In this document: positions 820-23,364 of the stretch, piece by piece
How positions within the stretch are numbered: position 1 is the first letter of the stretch
Layout of the letters: each line of letters begins with the position of its first letter
DNA from: Candidatus Gastranaerophilales bacterium
GTDB taxonomy: Bacteria > Cyanobacteriota > Vampirovibrionia > Gastranaerophilales > Gastranaerophilaceae
Reading direction: 5' to 3'
Assembly: GCA_905236205.1 (NCBI GenBank)
Contig: CAJOPF010000011.1
Span: forward strand, 1 to 33,819
Length of the DNA stretch: 33,819 bases
Position numbers and translations under genes: made by a program
Notes under the pieces: generated by a model
Told to the model about the DNA's origin: nothing
What the model saw: the letters and a program-made list of their open reading frames with translations, nothing else
Database searches by the model: none

Positions 820-1965
820 ATGATTTTAAGACATCTTGAAGCTCAAACATTAACTCAAACACCGGTATTAAAGAATGTTGTAAAAGAAGTTCCAACAGTA
901 CAGGCAAAAACAGAGGAAAAAGGTACAGATAACAAAATTGAATCTAAAGCACTGTCAAGCTACTTTAGAGGCGGTCAAATGGTTCATTTTGAAGGTCATC
1001 ACTGTTCAAAATCAGATTTTAAAGTAAAAAAAGAAGAAGGTATTCCATGCGCATGTTGCGGTCGTTTAATGATGACAAACAACGGCGTTCAAAATTTTGA
1101 ACGTAAAGCAATCGGAGCAAAAGGTGAGGATTTACAAAATCTTTTGACTGTTAACATGGATTATTTCAGAGGAACTGAAAAAGCTGTAGTGAATTTCTTG
1201 GTAAAAACATCTAAAATAAATCCTAACTTAACAATGAAGGGTTTATTAACTCAATATTCACCAAACGCAAAATCTCTATTGGAAGAAGAACAAAGAAATG
1301 TTTTGGCAGAAGTATCAAATAAAGCATCCGTATTAGGAAAAGACAATCCTGTAGAAAAATGTGTGCAAAAAGCATTAAAAGATATTGAAAAAAGCACTGA
1401 TGAGAAACACTTTGAAAGAAAACCTTTCTTAAAAAAATTGGTTGATGCAACAAAAGACATGGAAGACAAAGAGCTTGCTGGTCAAATACTTGATAGTGCA
1501 GTAAAATTACCAATGTCAAAAAATTCAATAGAAGCATTTATAGTAAAATATGCTCATGGCAATAAAGAAGATAGAGACATAGCTCACAGACTTGCTCAAA
1601 CAGCAGTTTCAACAGCTGAGCACATTCATCCTGATACATTAGGCGGTCCTGACCATACAGCTAACTATGTTGCAGAATGTGGTGATTGCAACAGCAAAAG
1701 AGGTCACATGCCATTGGAAGAATGGATGGAAAACTTTCCAAACATGCCAAGAAGCGTTCAAAGAAATATTGACGAGGTAACTGAAAGAATTATTAAAGGC
1801 AACCTTGGAAGCAGATATGACGATTATCCGATGGATATACAAGCAACAATGAACCGAGAAACAGGCGGAATAATCAGACTTAAGGTAAAAAATCCTGAAG
1901 AAATTCAAAAAGCAAGAGAAGAAAGAGGACTTGCGCAACCTGAAGAATCGAGTTCTCATCACTAA
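820..1965 (+). CDS. HNH-endonuclease-like protein with separated N-terminal CxxC and C-terminal HNH core (paralog A)
   Basis: CACCGRLMM near residues 77-85; AEHIHPDTLGGPDHTANYVAECGDCNSKRGHMPLEEWM near the C-terminus; homologous along its length to 2039..3475. Confidence 0.75.
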   Translation: MILRHLEAQTLTQTPVLKNVVKEVPTVQAKTEEKGTDNKIESKALSSYFRGGQMVHFEGHHCSKSDFKVKKEEGIPCACCGRLMMTNNGVQNFERKAIGAKGEDLQNLLTVNMDYFRGTEKAVVNFLVKTSKINPNLTMKGLLTQYSPNAKSLLEEEQRNVLAEVSNKASVLGKDNPVEKCVQKALKDIEKSTDEKHFERKPFLKKLVDATKDMEDKELAGQILDSAVKLPMSKNSIEAFIVKYAHGNKEDRDIAHRLAQTAVSTAEHIHPDTLGGPDHTANYVAECGDCNSKRGHMPLEEWMENFPNMPRSVQRNIDEVTERIIKGNLGSRYDDYPMDIQATMNRETGGIIRLKVKNPEEIQKAREERGLAQPEESSSHH

Positions 1966-2038
1966 ATCAATAACAGATAATAATTATATATTTATATAGG
2001 TCTCAAAAAACAATTTAGGAAATAGGTAATATTTAAAA

Positions 2039-3475
2039 ATGCACGTTCAAAGAATTATGGCAGCTGCGCCAATTTCGACAGTATCAAACAAAACTCAAAC
2101 TCAAAAACCGGAAGCACAAAATGTAACAGCACCTTTTGAAGCAAATTCTTCAAAAGCATCACAAATTGCAAGAAACTACTTCATGGCATCTCAAATGGTA
2201 AATCCTGCATTCACAGGTTTTCCTTGTTCAACTTCTAATTTCAGAGTAAAAGAACTTGAAGATATGCCTTGTACTTGCTGTGGTCGTCCAATGATGACAA
2301 ATAAACAGATTGATGACTTTACATTAAAAGCATCTAAAGCATCGGGAGAAGGATTGAACCAAATTTTAGAAGACCACATGAAATATTTCAGAGCTGAAGA
2401 AAAAGCTATTGTGCATTATATACAAAAACAATTAAAAGGTGATTATCCGGATGCTGACTTAACATCAGCTATTTCAAGAACAAATCCGTCTGCAAGACAA
2501 ATATTAAGAGATGAGCAAGCAGATGTTTTAAGAAGAACAAGCGAAATTTCAAAAGAACTTTTAGGTGAAAACAATCCTGTACAAAACGCTTGCGAAAGAG
2601 AATTAAACACTACTTTTGCTACTGATAAAGCAAAAAACAGACAAAAAAATAAAGCAGGTTCTGGAGCAGGAGCTAATTTTGACAGAACTAATTTCTTAAC
2701 AACTTTGGTTAAATTAGAACATAACAAAGGCATTGAACACGAAAAAATGCACCACATCTTAGACGTAGCTGTCCAATTACCTGAATCTGAAAAAATCATT
2801 GATAAAATGCTTACACAATACGGCAAAGGAAACAGTAATGAAAGATTTGCTCACAGACTAATCCAAAAAGCCGTAGTAACAGCAGAACATATTCATCCAA
2901 AATCAAAAGGCGGTCCTAACGCAACAAACAATTACATGGGTGAATGCCAAGAATGTAATGGTTCTCGCGGAAACATGTCTTATGAAGAATGGATGAAACG
3001 TTACCCTAACATGCCTGATAATATTCAAGTACACGCTGATGCAGTAACTGAAGAAATTATAAAAGGTAAAATTGGCGGTAACTACGACGATTATCCTGTG
3101 GATTTAAAAGCTGCAGTTGAATCAGAAACCGAAGGAAAAGTTGTTTTAACTGTTAAAAATCCTGAAGAAATTGAAAAGGCAAGAGAAGAAAGAGGTTTGA
3201 CAAAACCCGAAGCTGATGCAAAAGAAAAAGCTAACGCTTCAGGTGCTTACCAAGGCTCTTACCATGGAAACCCTGCATTAGAAGGCAGTTCTAAAAAGAC
3301 TTCTTCAACAGGTACAACGACTAATTCTACAGAAAAACCTCAACAAACAACAACTAACAATACAACTAAATCAGGAAAAAGTCATAAAGGACACAAAGGC
3401 GGTAAAAGACATCATATCGTTCAATTCCCTTCTCAAATGACTCAAGCTGAAGAAATTCAAGAAGAAGTTGCTTAA
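2039..3475 (+). CDS. HNH-endonuclease-like protein, paralog B, with low-complexity Thr/Lys/His-rich C-terminal tail
   Basis: CTCCGRPMM ... AEHIHPKSKGGPNATNNYMGECQECNGSRGNMSYEEWM; tail STGTTTNSTEKPQQTTTNNTTKSGKSHKGHKGGKRHH. Confidence 0.75.
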   Translation: MHVQRIMAAAPISTVSNKTQTQKPEAQNVTAPFEANSSKASQIARNYFMASQMVNPAFTGFPCSTSNFRVKELEDMPCTCCGRPMMTNKQIDDFTLKASKASGEGLNQILEDHMKYFRAEEKAIVHYIQKQLKGDYPDADLTSAISRTNPSARQILRDEQADVLRRTSEISKELLGENNPVQNACERELNTTFATDKAKNRQKNKAGSGAGANFDRTNFLTTLVKLEHNKGIEHEKMHHILDVAVQLPESEKIIDKMLTQYGKGNSNERFAHRLIQKAVVTAEHIHPKSKGGPNATNNYMGECQECNGSRGNMSYEEWMKRYPNMPDNIQVHADAVTEEIIKGKIGGNYDDYPVDLKAAVESETEGKVVLTVKNPEEIEKAREERGLTKPEADAKEKANASGAYQGSYHGNPALEGSSKKTSSTGTTTNSTEKPQQTTTNNTTKSGKSHKGHKGGKRHHIVQFPSQMTQAEEIQEEVA

Positions 3476-3490
3476 TATAATTAAGAAAAT

Positions 3491-3532
3491 AAAAAGAGCG
3501 TAATTTCCAAAATCGGGAGTTACGCTCTTTTT
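3491..3532. terminator. Bidirectional intrinsic terminator between convergent HNH paralog B and rsmD
   Basis: aaaaagagcgtaa-(tttccaaaatcggga...)-ttacgctcttttt: 13-bp perfect inverted repeat with A/T tails; the right arm carries the rsmD stop codon. Confidence 0.8.
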
Positions 3533-4026
3533 AAAAATGTTAGGAATTTATCGCCGTATTTTTTTTGTTTAATTATTTCATAATTTAAAAAATCAACATC
3601 TTCTGTATGTTCAAGTATAACTATTTTACATTCGGGCAAAACAGAGAGAGCCTGTTCATAAACGCCAGCATAATATGGCGGATCAATATATACAACGTCA
3701 AAATATTGCTGTGGTAAATGTTTTAAACAATCACTTTTTATAAGATTTTGATTTTCACCGATTTTTCTATAATTATCTTCTAAAATTTTAAAAATTTTAT
3801 TATTTTTTTCAATTGCAGTAACATGCTTAAAACCTCTTGATAAAGCTTCGAGTCCCATAATTCCCGAACCTGCAAACATATCAAGAAAATTTGCATCCTC
3901 AAAGTCTATTATTGCCTGAAGCGTGTTAAAAACAGCCATTCTGATTTTTGAAAGCGTTGGGCGTGTTATGCTTTCATCAGGTGCATAAATTTTTTGTCCT
4001 TTATATTTGCCTGCCGTAATATTCAT
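3520..4026 (-). CDS. rsmD: 16S rRNA (guanine(966)-N(2))-methyltransferase RsmD
   Basis: MNITAGKYKGQKIYAPDESITRPTLSKIRMAVFNTL...FLDMFAGSGIMGLEALSRG...DVVYIDPPYY; start moved from 4056 to the internal MNITAG start. Confidence 0.9.
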   Translation of the reverse strand: MNITAGKYKGQKIYAPDESITRPTLSKIRMAVFNTLQAIIDFEDANFLDMFAGSGIMGLEALSRGFKHVTAIEKNNKIFKILEDNYRKIGENQNLIKSDCLKHLPQQYFDVVYIDPPYYAGVYEQALSVLPECKIVILEHTEDVDFLNYEIIKQKKYGDKFLTFLKRA

Positions 4027-4027
4027 G

Positions 4028-4888
4028 TTACTTTCCGTTAATTGCAAAATAAACATCTTTAAGACGTTTTTTGCTTATGTGAGTATATAATTGAGTTGTT
4101 GCGACATCACTATGTCCCAAAAGTTCTTGTACAACACGTAAATCAGCGCCGTTTTCAAGCAAATGTGTTGCGTATGAATGTCTCAGTGTGTGCGGTGAAA
4201 TATTTTTGTGTATTTTTTTCCCTTGTTCATGAATAAAAACATATATATCCTGCCTTGAAAAACATCTTCCTTTATCGGAAATCAATAAAGTTTTTGTATC
4301 AAGCCTGAACTTTTTAATCAAGAAATCTCTGTGAGGAATATATAGTTTTATTGCAGAAATCGCTTTTTTGCCGAGCGGAACAATTCTTTCCTTTGAGCCT
4401 TTACCAAAAGCAGTTAAATATTTTGCACTCAAATCAAAATTATTGATTTTCAAATTTGTCAGCTCTGAAACCCGAAGTCCGCAACCGTACAACAATTCAA
4501 TAATAACTTTTTGAGTTACGGTTAAATTTTCGCGTAACATTTCTTCTATTTCCGCAACTGTCATAACTTTTGGTAATCTTTGAGGTACTTTTGGTCGTTC
4601 CACTGTCAAAGTGGGGTCAAACTTACATAATTCATTCGCACAAAGCCACTTAAAAAAACCTCTGAGTGAAGCAATTTTTCGGATTACACTTGTCGGAGAA
4701 TAGTTATTTTCTCTTAAAAACCTGATATAAGAATTTATTCCCATTCTTGTAACATTATCAAAATCAGGATGATTTGAATAGTCCAAAAACATAAGAATAT
4801 CACGCCTGTATGCGTCAATTGTATTTTTAGACAGACCTCTTTCAAGTTCAAGATAATCTAAATATTCTGACAAAATTTGCGTATCCAT
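4028..4888 (-). CDS. xerD: Xer-type tyrosine recombinase (XerC/XerD family)
   Basis: N-terminal SAM-like core (LERGLSKNTIDAYRRDILMFLDY), LLYGCGLRVSELTNL, HTLRHSYATHLLENGADLRVVQELLGHSDVATTQLYTHI. C versus D not resolved. Confidence 0.85.
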   Translation of the reverse strand: MDTQILSEYLDYLELERGLSKNTIDAYRRDILMFLDYSNHPDFDNVTRMGINSYIRFLRENNYSPTSVIRKIASLRGFFKWLCANELCKFDPTLTVERPKVPQRLPKVMTVAEIEEMLRENLTVTQKVIIELLYGCGLRVSELTNLKINNFDLSAKYLTAFGKGSKERIVPLGKKAISAIKLYIPHRDFLIKKFRLDTKTLLISDKGRCFSRQDIYVFIHEQGKKIHKNISPHTLRHSYATHLLENGADLRVVQELLGHSDVATTQLYTHISKKRLKDVYFAINGK

Positions 4889-5007: not shown

Positions 5008-6294
5008 CTATGCGAATGTTTTGAAGGAATCTTCAACGTTCTTTTTAGATATTTGTTTTACTGTGTCAATTTCTGTTTGAACGGCATTGTGTTCAGTATC
5101 AAGCTGTTTCAGTTTCAATTCAAGCTCTCTGTCCTGAGCGTGAACAATGGATGTTTTTGCGTTGATATTGTTCATTTCCTGTTCATATAAATAAGACTGA
5201 TAAGTGTACTCATTCATAGCTTGGTTATATGCTTCGTCATCCGTAATTGTATTTGCGGATATCGGATAATCTTCACCTCCATAGTTGAAACTTTGAACTC
5301 TGTTGTTGCCGTCACGACTGATAGTTACACCTTTGTATGAATCTTCTACGAAATTGGTTACCTCACTTGCAGAGTAGTAAACTACATGATCATCACCTGT
5401 AGAAGCTTTCGCAGCTTTGATATCAGAGGTTTTGTAGTATTGGTAAACAGGTTTTTCATCTGTTCCAACATTTGCTACCCAAATATTATCGGCACCATTG
5501 TTTGACAATCTATCGTACGCATCTTTATGCAAACTATCTTTTGAATCTACGTAAGATAATTTAGCGGTTTTTCCATTGTATGTGGTTATTGAGCCACCTG
5601 AATAGTTATCAGCTGTAAGATTCTTACCTTCATAAGCTTGTAGGGTTTGTGCCGGACCAGGAGTACCTGTACCCAAACTGTTTATTTGTTCTGAAGTAAA
5701 GAATTGTGTTGTACCATTCATCACAACTTTATACAAACGTTTACTTGTATCTGATGCATCACAACCCATTTGATTCCAAGCTGATAGTTCAGGTTCAGCA
5801 CCAGGTTTTGTATTATACGGAGTTACTGTTGCATCTTTCCATTCATTTGAAGCATTCAAGTATTGGAAATTTGTAGCATCTTTTCTTCTTAATTGAGTTG
5901 TTAAATCAGGATAAGTGTAAATCGCGTATGTATCAGAAGTAACAGAAGTGTTTGTCAAATCTGTTCTTTGTTTAGTTGTACAAGCAGGGAAACCTAATTC
6001 TTTTTCGGAATAAGTAAACAGAACAGTATATGTACCGTCATTACCTTTCGCAAATTGGGTAACAGTTGCTTGAGTATCATAGCTGCCTGGGATTATAAAC
6101 GAGTATTCAACCCTTGTGTAATCCTGTGTATTAGGTGGCACAGGAACTTGCAGCGTCAGCATTTGGTTATACAAATTAGCAGATTCATTTGATAGTTCAG
6201 TTCTTTGTTGGTTAATTTGCTGACCTTGATATTCTATATTTGTTTTTCTTGCGGTAAGGTTTAAAAATCTTGCCTGTGATGCTGCCATGCCCAT
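5008..6294 (-). CDS. Uncharacterised protein with conserved helical termini and divergent middle (paralog of 22063..23364)
   Basis: MGMAASQARFLNLTARKTNIEYQGQQINQQRTEL...; C-term QDRELELKLKQLDTEHNAVQTEIDTVKQISKKNVEDSFKTFA; SD-like AGGAG. Confidence 0.85.
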   Translation of the reverse strand: MGMAASQARFLNLTARKTNIEYQGQQINQQRTELSNESANLYNQMLTLQVPVPPNTQDYTRVEYSFIIPGSYDTQATVTQFAKGNDGTYTVLFTYSEKELGFPACTTKQRTDLTNTSVTSDTYAIYTYPDLTTQLRRKDATNFQYLNASNEWKDATVTPYNTKPGAEPELSAWNQMGCDASDTSKRLYKVVMNGTTQFFTSEQINSLGTGTPGPAQTLQAYEGKNLTADNYSGGSITTYNGKTAKLSYVDSKDSLHKDAYDRLSNNGADNIWVANVGTDEKPVYQYYKTSDIKAAKASTGDDHVVYYSASEVTNFVEDSYKGVTISRDGNNRVQSFNYGGEDYPISANTITDDEAYNQAMNEYTYQSYLYEQEMNNINAKTSIVHAQDRELELKLKQLDTEHNAVQTEIDTVKQISKKNVEDSFKTFA

Positions 6295-14117: not shown

Positions 14118-14711
14118 TTATGCTTGTTTTTTTTCTTCGTAAGGTTTAATACCTAATTTATCACAAATCCAACCACCGGCTTTTCTTGCGTATTTAGGAG
14201 CATAAATTGTAGCTAAAGAATAAGTTACACCGATGATTAAAGCAGGTAATTGTCCCATACCTTTTGTATTTTTTGAGAAGTCACCAACTTTTTGAGCAAC
14301 AGTATTTAAACATTTTGTATTTTTTACAAAATTAGGAACTGTTTTTAACATTACATGTTTTGCAGCAAACTTAGCACTCCAGCCTAAAGTTTCTTCAATA
14401 CCTTTTCTTAAAGGTGAGCTTGATTGGAAAACTTGAACTGCTGATTTACACATACCGATTTCATCACCTTGTTTTGCAACATTGATGAATAAACCTGCTG
14501 TTTTTAAAGAATCACTATTTTCAGAAGCTTTTGTGAAAGAATCTACAACACCTCTTGCAGCTTCACCCCAGCTATTTTCAACTTTAGCAAGTTTTTGAAC
14601 AACTTTAACAGCATTACCTGTTGCACAGTACGCAGCAAGTTTATCACCGTTTGCAGCTTTTTTCAAATTTCTTACTAATGATATTGATTCTGAAATATAA
14701 TTTGATGACAT
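14118..14711 (-). CDS. Uncharacterised small helical protein (paralog 2 of tandem pair)
   Basis: SESISLVRNLKKAANGD... LPALIIGVTYSLATIYAPKYARKAGGWICDKLGI; similar ends to 14738..15373. Confidence 0.75.
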   Translation of the reverse strand: MSSNYISESISLVRNLKKAANGDKLAAYCATGNAVKVVQKLAKVENSWGEAARGVVDSFTKASENSDSLKTAGLFINVAKQGDEIGMCKSAVQVFQSSSPLRKGIEETLGWSAKFAAKHVMLKTVPNFVKNTKCLNTVAQKVGDFSKNTKGMGQLPALIIGVTYSLATIYAPKYARKAGGWICDKLGIKPYEEKKQA

Positions 14712-14737: not shown

Positions 14738-15373
14738 CTATCCGAAATAATATTTTTTCGTTTTTCCGTCCGCTGTTTTGTGATTATCAGGCGGATCTGA
14801 TTTTGCAAGTCCCAGCTTATCAGCAATCCACGAGCCTGCTTTTCTGAATGCCGCCGAGCCTACCATTGAACCTACGGTAAATGCGACACCGTAAACTATC
14901 GCCGGAATCACCTTTAATGGTCCACCCTTTGCATTACAGAACTTAACCATTGCATCATTTGCCTGTTTTATGCCTTTTATATTTGCAATACTTTTTGCAT
15001 GTTTAATCATCGCACCTTCGACAATTAACATACCTGCGAAATCACTTCCTTCTTCCAATAAAGCTCTTGCAGGAGTGTCAGATTTCAAAACTCTTATACC
15101 TGCACATATACCTGAAATAGGGTCTGTATTTCTGCAAAGTTTAACACCTTGTCTTACGGCTTTACCAACTTTGCTGCCTGATGTAACTTTGTCAAAAGTA
15201 TCAACAATAGAAGAACAAAGTTTTGTTGTTGCTTCCGTACCTTGTCCTGAAGCTAATTTAGTTATAAGTTTTGAGGCATGACCAACAGTAGACGCATGTC
15301 TCAAGATGTTTCCGTCTTTAGCCTTTTGATAGTTGCCTACCAGTGATATTAACGATGATACGTAATTTGCCAT
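14738..15373 (-). CDS. Uncharacterised small helical protein (paralog 1 of tandem pair)
   Basis: SSLISLVGNYQKAKDGN... IPAIVYGVAFTVGSMVGSAAFRKAGSWIADKLGL. Confidence 0.75.
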   Translation of the reverse strand: MANYVSSLISLVGNYQKAKDGNILRHASTVGHASKLITKLASGQGTEATTKLCSSIVDTFDKVTSGSKVGKAVRQGVKLCRNTDPISGICAGIRVLKSDTPARALLEEGSDFAGMLIVEGAMIKHAKSIANIKGIKQANDAMVKFCNAKGGPLKVIPAIVYGVAFTVGSMVGSAAFRKAGSWIADKLGLAKSDPPDNHKTADGKTKKYYFG

Positions 15374-22062: not shown

Positions 22063-23364
22063 ATGGGCATGGCAGCATCACAGGCAAGATTTTTAAATCT
22101 AACCGCAAGAAGAACAAACATAGAATATCAAGGTCAACAAATTAACCAACAAAGAACAGAATTAGCTAATGAATCTGCTAATTTGTATAACCAAATGTTG
22201 ACGCTTCAAGTTCCTGTTCCTCCAAATACACAAGATTACACTAAGATTGAATATACTTTCCAAATTCCTGGTAATTATGATACCGAAGCAACTGTTGCAC
22301 AATTTGCTAAAACTAATGTTCCGGGTCAATATACGGTTATATTTAACTATACTGAAAAAGAATTAGGTTTCCCTGCTTGCACAACTAAACAAAGAACAGA
22401 TTTGACAAATACATCTGTCACTTCAGACCAAAACGCAGCTTATACTTATCCTAATTTAACATCACAATTAAGAAATATAGGTGGCACAAATTATCAATAC
22501 TTAGATTCAGCCAATGTTTGGCAAAATGCGACTGTAGCTGAGATCGCGACAGCTCCTAGTGAACCTGATTTATCAGTATGGAATCAATTGGGTTGTGACG
22601 CTACAGATGTAAATAAACATTTATATAAAGTTACTATGGGTGGTACAATACAATACTTTACTCCTGAACAAATAAAAGGATTACAACCAGGTACATCCGC
22701 TACAGATCCTGGTGCAGCACAAACTTTACAAGGTTACCAAACTGCTGCAGTAGCAGCTGGCAGCAACTATTCCGGTGAAAGCATAACAACATATCAAGGA
22801 AAAACTGCTAAATTGTCTTACGTTTCTGCTAACGACAGTTTACATAAAGATGCGTATGATCACCTGTCAAACGGTGGTACAGAACTTGTTTGGGTAGCTA
22901 ATATCGGAACTGAAGATAAACCTGTTTACCAATACTACAGAAGCTCTGATATTGCTGAAGCTAAATCTGCCACAGGTGATAATCACGTAGTTTACTATAC
23001 TGCAAGTGATATTGACGTATTTAAAGAAGACAGTTACACTCCTGTAACTATCAGTCGTGATGGTAATAACAGAGTTCAAAGCTTCAACTACAACGGTGAA
23101 GATTACGCCGTTAGCGCTAATACTGTCACAGATGATGACGCATACAACGACGCAATGAACGAATACAAATATCAATCTTATTTATATGAACAAGAAATGA
23201 ATAATATCAACGCTAAGACTTCTATTGTTCAAGCTCAAGACAGAACTCTTGAATTGAAGCTTAAACAATTGGATACAGAGCACAACGCAGTTCAAACAGA
23301 AATGGATGCTGTTAAAGGTGTCTGCAAGAAAAACGTTGAAGATTCTTTCAAAACATTCGCTTAG
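22063..23364 (+). CDS. Uncharacterised protein with conserved helical termini and divergent middle (paralog of 5008..6294)
   Basis: MGMAASQARFLNLTARRTNIEYQGQQINQQRTELANESANLYNQMLTLQVPVPPNTQDYT...; C-term LELKLKQLDTEHNAVQTEMDAVKGVCKKNVEDSFKTFA. Confidence 0.85.
   Translation: MGMAASQARFLNLTARRTNIEYQGQQINQQRTELANESANLYNQMLTLQVPVPPNTQDYTKIEYTFQIPGNYDTEATVAQFAKTNVPGQYTVIFNYTEKELGFPACTTKQRTDLTNTSVTSDQNAAYTYPNLTSQLRNIGGTNYQYLDSANVWQNATVAEIATAPSEPDLSVWNQLGCDATDVNKHLYKVTMGGTIQYFTPEQIKGLQPGTSATDPGAAQTLQGYQTAAVAAGSNYSGESITTYQGKTAKLSYVSANDSLHKDAYDHLSNGGTELVWVANIGTEDKPVYQYYRSSDIAEAKSATGDNHVVYYTASDIDVFKEDSYTPVTISRDGNNRVQSFNYNGEDYAVSANTVTDDDAYNDAMNEYKYQSYLYEQEMNNINAKTSIVQAQDRTLELKLKQLDTEHNAVQTEMDAVKGVCKKNVEDSFKTFA

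Follow-up and report, generated by a model that had tools for sequence, protein, structure and literature searches.

Tandem HNH-type proteins of a Gastranaerophilales genome with a helical domain between the two CxxC pairs of a putative zinc knuckle

The 33,819-nucleotide stretch of DNA analysed here (hereafter the window) carries two adjacent genes, ORF1 and ORF2, whose products are, in our judgement, probably HNH nucleases of the [CxxC]2 type, in which a helical domain separates the two halves of a single zinc site and which would nick their substrate intracellularly, as part of DNA processing or of a defence. This reading is drawn from sequence comparisons and predicted structures. HNH enzymes are a known class, but such a split-knuckle architecture is new among them. 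The window corresponds to contig C11 of a 1.86-Mb genome, the closest named relatives of which are MAGs of Cyanobacteria/Gastranaerophilales from animal guts. The source bacterium, one of the Gastranaerophilales (Melainabacteria), is a gut-dwelling, non-photosynthetic relative of cyanobacteria. The features of the two genes are collected in Table 1.

Table 1. Features of the HNH gene pair and of its 3' neighbour (positions in the window).
Feature	Position	Strand	Basis
ORF1, split-knuckle HNH protein, 381 aa	820..1965	+	ORF; HNH_5 30.8 bits; orthologues in four records
ORF1 variable N-terminal leader, residues 1-54, predicted disordered	820..981	+	pLDDT 23-36; identity among orthologues
ORF1 first (putative) zinc-knuckle half CACCG (C77, C80)	1048..1062	+	C77-x-x-C80-G81; HNH_5/HNH positions 1-4 when spliced
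ORF1 all-helical insert, residues 87-260	1078..1599	+	AlphaFold2, helices only; no PDB fold match
ORF1 HNH core, residues 263-298 (H268, N282, C287, C290, N291)	1606..1713	+	HNH_5 match
ORF1 C-terminal helical flank, residues 301-356 (EEWM..FPNMP...YDDYP)	1720..1887	+	conservation
ORF2, tandem paralogue, 478 aa	2039..3475	+	ORF; HNH_5 30.1 bits; identity to ORF1
ORF2 first (putative) zinc-knuckle half CTCCG (C78, C81)	2270..2284	+	
ORF2 helical insert, residues 92-275	2312..2863	+	AlphaFold2 core model
ORF2 HNH core, residues 279-315, modelled strand-strand-helix	2873..2983	+	HNH_5 match; core model low confidence
RsmD/Cons_hypoth95 rRNA-type methyltransferase, convergent, 3' of HNH pair	3520-4056	-	

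Both ORFs are complete and lie in tandem, with 73 bp between them. The coordinates, frames and motifs that the first-pass annotation had given for these HNH-like paralogues were all recovered, and the two proteins are 41–42% identical overall, the identity varying by region (knuckle: 56%; insert: 35%; HNH: 58%; C-terminal flank: 52%; leader: 22%). On the 5' side, the pair faces a divergent gene for a proton pyrophosphatase, while on the 3' side the gene of the RsmD-type methyltransferase is adjoined by that of a XerD-like recombinase, likewise convergent, both of which look like housekeeping genes. The same tandem recurs in related genomes: four related records (L006–L009) preserve the order hppA–HNH–HNH–rsmD–xerD, some with one more gene between the second HNH gene and rsmD, orthologues of ORF1 (75–80% identical) occupy the equivalent position in four related records whose flanks are complete, and tandem pairs with gaps below 500 bp are found in 12 genus groups. 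No toxin-immunity, restriction or phage gene adjoins the pair in the window, which agrees with the first-pass annotation as far as immunity and phage genes are concerned, but its statement that no partner methylase is adjacent needs correcting in that the 3' neighbour does encode a methyltransferase, albeit a convergent one of the RsmD-like rRNA type. Elsewhere in the window, two paralogous proteins beginning with MGMAASQARFLNLTAR(K/R)TNIEYQGQQINQQRTEL (5008-6294 on the minus strand and 22063-23364 on the plus strand) have no Pfam match and are possibly components of an envelope or flagellum-like structure; two adjoining small, paralogue-like proteins (14118-14711 and 14738-15373, both on the minus strand) have no Pfam match either.

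The two proteins follow a common plan. In ORF1, the leader is 41–52% identical among orthologues (vs. 78–98% for the domains) and is followed by a conserved F57-x-G59, with F57 present in 150 of 192 aligned relatives. The CxxCGR motif originally noticed near residue 80 reads CACCGR at residues 77–82 of ORF1 and CTCCGR at residues 78–83 of ORF2, and the HNH core placed near residues 280–350 corresponds to AEHIHPDTLGGPDHTANYVAECGDCNSKRG (from residue 266) in ORF1 and to AEHIHPKSKGGPNATNNYMGECQECNGSRG in ORF2, this core being 85–98% identical among orthologues. The long helical stretch that had been predicted between them is likewise there, since 188 residues separate C80 from the catalytic H268 in ORF1 (family median: 189) and the helices are predicted confidently. 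Finally, the flank following the core is as conserved as had been remarked (88–91% identity in ORF1 orthologues, in addition to the 52% between paralogues), and ORF2 carries an extra C-terminal tail (about residues 373–478) that is of low complexity and rich in Lys and His. In the AlphaFold2 models, which were built from an 11-sequence alignment, the insert consists entirely of helices in ORF1 (pLDDT mostly 85–97), and it is modelled with similar scores in the core model of ORF2 (mostly 85–96, with one weak loop). The HNH region has a pLDDT of 36–75 in these models; in the core model of ORF2 it forms, at low pLDDT, a strand (E222-228), a second strand (E242-246) and a helix (H247-255), in the order expected of an HNH fold. 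Neither model, the HNH part of which is uncertain, had a fold match at E <= 0.001 in the PDB and viral libraries. Matches of the insert to Ribosomal_S7, DotZ and NRD1 (Pfam/PDB) all lie above E 0.09 and were set aside as noise. Both proteins accordingly carry, after the first CxxC half-knuckle and ahead of the first predicted HNH strand, a domain of about 170 residues predicted to be all-helical, which most likely projects from the knuckle loop and would serve to recognise the substrate or to bind a partner.

Membership of the HNH family, suspected at first from motifs, holds in profile searches: both proteins exceed the 27.5-bit cut-off of Pfam HNH_5 (ORF1: 30.8 bits; ORF2: 30.1 bits), which puts the assignment well above chance, and fall slightly under the 21.4-bit cut-off of Pfam HNH (19.0 and 20.9 bits). 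In both ORFs, the HNH_5 match begins at profile position 9–10, so that the model's first CxxC has no counterpart at that place. A first CxxC near the catalytic His characterises the [CxxC]2 subtype but not HNH enzymes at large. The distance between the two is about 11–18 residues in ordinary [CxxC]2 HNH nucleases vs. 188 residues here, and a first CxxC that is displaced but present is what sets ORF1 and ORF2 apart within the HNH class. The residues of the presumptive active site are nearly invariant: the position of H268 is a His in all 191 relatives having a residue there, N282 is conserved as Asn in 186 relatives and N291 in 190 of 192, and members devoid of zinc ligands still possess the equivalents of all three. 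The proteins are best described as candidate beta-beta-alpha-metal HNH nucleases of the [CxxC]2 zinc-knuckle type, with an HNN active site composed of H268 (general base), N282 and N291 (metal ligand). Established HNH chemistry leads us to expect that this site would nick double-stranded nucleic acid using one divalent metal ion.

Alternatively, the pair might be what remains of an IscB-like HNH protein from a homing element or a transposon, still binding DNA but catalytically inactive. In favour of this, IscB gives the nearest match in NCBIfam (for ORF2, 29.7 bits, far under the 175-bit cut-off), and some family members have lost their zinc ligands. We regard this as very improbable, given that H268, N282 and N291 are nearly invariant even in the zinc-less members, that the HNH core is so highly conserved in orthologues, and that no insert-bearing phage or plasmid relatives were found.

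With at least about 185 residues of sequence between them, the two CxxC pairs most likely complete a single structural zinc site. The first-pass annotation had left the choice between a site split by an inserted domain and two separate sites, and three independent tests on the sequences point to the former: a splice test, a one-sided co-loss of the Cys pairs and the persistence of the two pairs where a copy is catalytically dead. When the knuckle is joined straight to the core, the HNH_5 score rises from 32.2 to 38.0 bits for ORF1 and from 34.8 to 41.9 bits for ORF2 (Pfam HNH for ORF2: from 25.2 to 33.3 bits), and all insert-free splices give a full-length match that starts at profile position 1, while control splices with an insert helix reach only 32.8 and 35.2 bits. 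Across the 176 relatives in which all four positions are aligned, 111 keep both pairs, 43 have lost both, 22 retain the N-terminal pair alone and none the C-terminal pair alone; among these 22, 16 have an Asp or a His as a possible ligand (11 CxxD, 5 HxxC). One of the 176 sequences (L021_2867) is apparently an ordinary short-spacing HNH protein (with the sole spacing of 27), and its omission leaves the conclusion unchanged. The co-loss evidence amounts to few independent events, parsimony placing 5 changes (losses) in the N-terminal pair and 11 changes in the C-terminal one; under random placement on the tree, the one-sided pattern has a probability of about 0.003 with 5 losses and of 0.035 with 3, and a test on independent pairs, too few for significance, never went in the opposite direction. 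As for the dead copies, all seven double-domain proteins (648–690 aa) have an N-terminal copy without the catalytic [DE]H in which both CxxC pairs are present, about 200–216 residues apart. These double-domain members are found in L162–L164 and L166–L169, and their second copy is intact.

According to the competing view, the N-terminal CxCCG would bind a zinc of its own, with additional ligands provided by His or Cys residues such as C62 or by a dimer interface, and the CxxC of the HNH core would belong to a second, incomplete site. The low-confidence model does show the knuckle as a separate small hairpin, and the 22 proteins with an altered C-terminal pair keep the N-terminal one. Yet the position of C62 is occupied by a Cys in no more than 45 of the 192 relatives, so that a conserved second ligand pair is not evident near the knuckle, which itself aligns with the beginning of the HNH profile that the core match lacks. 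Taken with the lack of any C-terminal pair without its N-terminal counterpart in the 176 relatives and with the two pairs retained by dead copies, this makes two zinc sites distinctly unlikely, and we favour a single split site as the better reading. The literature adds to these tests: GVE2 HNHE has a four-Cys site made of C76, C79, C114 and C117, with H93 as the catalytic residue and the same order of elements (PMC5304195), which likewise speaks for one site. Canonical short-spacing versions also exist in phages and in the same genome as ORF1 and ORF2 (CQYCGKHLSSDELTLDH, L235), the latter allowing a direct comparison with the split form. A real split site would mean that a domain of 170 residues can be accommodated between the halves of a four-Cys zinc knuckle, and that zinc and catalysis can be lost separately, leaving zinc-less proteins with an intact active site and dead ones with an intact zinc site. 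Such copies would be natural mutants for probing the role of zinc in HNH enzymes.

Relatives occur in 138 of the 146 genomes sampled in the same family (120 of the 125 of good quality), at 1 to 12 copies per genome, and in 52 of the 60 genomes sampled at the order level. The genomes G018 and G054 (genus g19) have 12 and 9 copies, respectively, many of them on separate contigs. Beyond Gastranaerophilales, only scattered partial matches were obtained, those in other cyanobacteria being limited to the HNH core of about 50 residues; phage records yielded HNH-core matches devoid of the insert architecture, and plasmids and viral contigs no matches at all. A class-level match outside the order (G182, E 9e-6) was discarded, as it covers the query partially and corresponds to no family ORF. 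This wide occurrence in the lineage, along with the absence of the architecture from phages and plasmids, indicates a chromosomal, lineage-specific family rather than a passing mobile element. No known family with such a spacing between knuckle and core was found, nor, in the collection of papers searched, any on Gastranaerophilales and HNH endonucleases. The split-knuckle HNH family appears to be undescribed so far, even though nearly all members of a common uncultured gut lineage carry it, often in several copies.

Some clues to function come from a subfamily of about 700–800 aa, whose long C-terminal extension is predicted to be a coiled coil, and which is linked to a gene for a Ski2/Mtr4-like DEAD-DSHCT helicase (PADLOC HamB: 104 bits; PDB Ski2: 217 bits). 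At 11 of the 25 helicase loci examined, nine with the closest homologues of the helicase and two with more distant homologues, the HNH gene starts 1–20 bp inside the end of the helicase gene, an overlap that implies translational coupling (junctions in L241–L249, L251 and L254). This suggests that the helicase and the HNH protein share a nucleic-acid substrate, and a two-gene system for defence or for RNA/DNA processing is possible. No such partner was detected in the genus of the window (E <= 1e-60). Considering both the context of the subfamily and the lack of such a helicase in this genus, an intracellular nicking pair is favoured for the window, with its site of action most likely in chromosomal DNA processing or defence. 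A broader alternative, to which we give rather little credence, is that the insert serves as a recognition module in a Gastranaerophilales-specific nuclease system, helicase-guided or leader-targeted, Hachiman-like but distinct, in which the HNH protein and a Ski2-like helicase bearing a similar N-terminal leader would make up a two-gene unit in several genera, and that the window pair forms a stand-alone heterodimer cutting both strands.

The leader opens another route, in which its ending, [VI][ST]F[KG]G, would be a targeting signal and the proteins would be secreted or injected effectors acting in other cells. A similar leader that fits the pattern M[KR][IV]...[VIL][ST]F[KG]G, perhaps a targeting or docking signal, is also seen on unrelated proteins (L033:2540-3553, L118:2531-3325, L200:325-1824 and L068:306-761) and on the helicases in L241–L265, the partner helicases included. 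Moreover, F57 is widely conserved while the remaining leader is the least conserved part of the protein, and the variable copy number (1 to 12) would suit effectors. Against this, a signal peptide is not apparent by eye, no immunity gene adjoins the pair, an ATP-dependent helicase partner suits cytosolic action, and near-universal occurrence is more in line with housekeeping. The leader motif itself is found at 6 protein N-termini vs. 4.9 expected in 400 kb, and 6 vs. 4.6 in 320 kb; with no enrichment at N-termini, the idea of a genome-wide N-terminal signal was dropped as unsupported. Export or injection thus seems unlikely to us, and it is with moderate confidence that we prefer to see the window pair as intracellular nicking proteins involved in DNA processing or defence.

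Several known systems resemble the split-knuckle proteins in part. The best sequence matches among solved structures are the HNH domains of type II-C Cas9 (4ogc, AnaCas9, and 8d2k; E about 4e-4); type II-C Cas9 and IscB have in common with ORF1 and ORF2 the HNN-type residues and a P...W after CN, and the P...EW of the ORF1 flank aligns with Cas9. Unlike Cas9 and IscB, however, the two proteins have no RuvC or guide-RNA domains and match over the HNH core only. Membership of IscB/Cas9 was rejected (23.6 and 29.7 bits vs. a cut-off of 175, in the HNH region only). The helicase-linked subfamily recalls Hachiman HamB and Ski2-Mtr4, in that the gene of its partner, a DSHCT helicase of the Ski2-like kind, forms an operon with a nuclease-type gene that it overlaps, but the second gene encodes a split-knuckle HNH protein, and the neighbours of the window pair include no helicase gene. 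The HamA models of PADLOC matched neither the window proteins nor one long-form member, and because HamA is absent, the helicase–HNH pair is not Hachiman. To go by the title cited in PMC12817073, a phage packaging HNH protein provides a precedent for a helical insertion in the HNH fold; there, the insertion would lie inside the beta-beta-alpha motif, whereas in ORF1 and ORF2 it lies between the zinc-knuckle halves. Finally, the closest likeness is in the [CxxC]2 HNH nucleases (PF01844, PF14279; GVE2 HNHE and Gme HNHE, 4H9D), with which the window pair shares the CxxC–His–Asn–CxxC/N order, a strand-strand-helix predicted at low confidence and four putative Cys ligands; it departs from GVE2 HNHE in that 188 residues, instead of 14 (C79 to H93), separate the first CxxC from the His, with an all-helical domain in between (PMC5304195).
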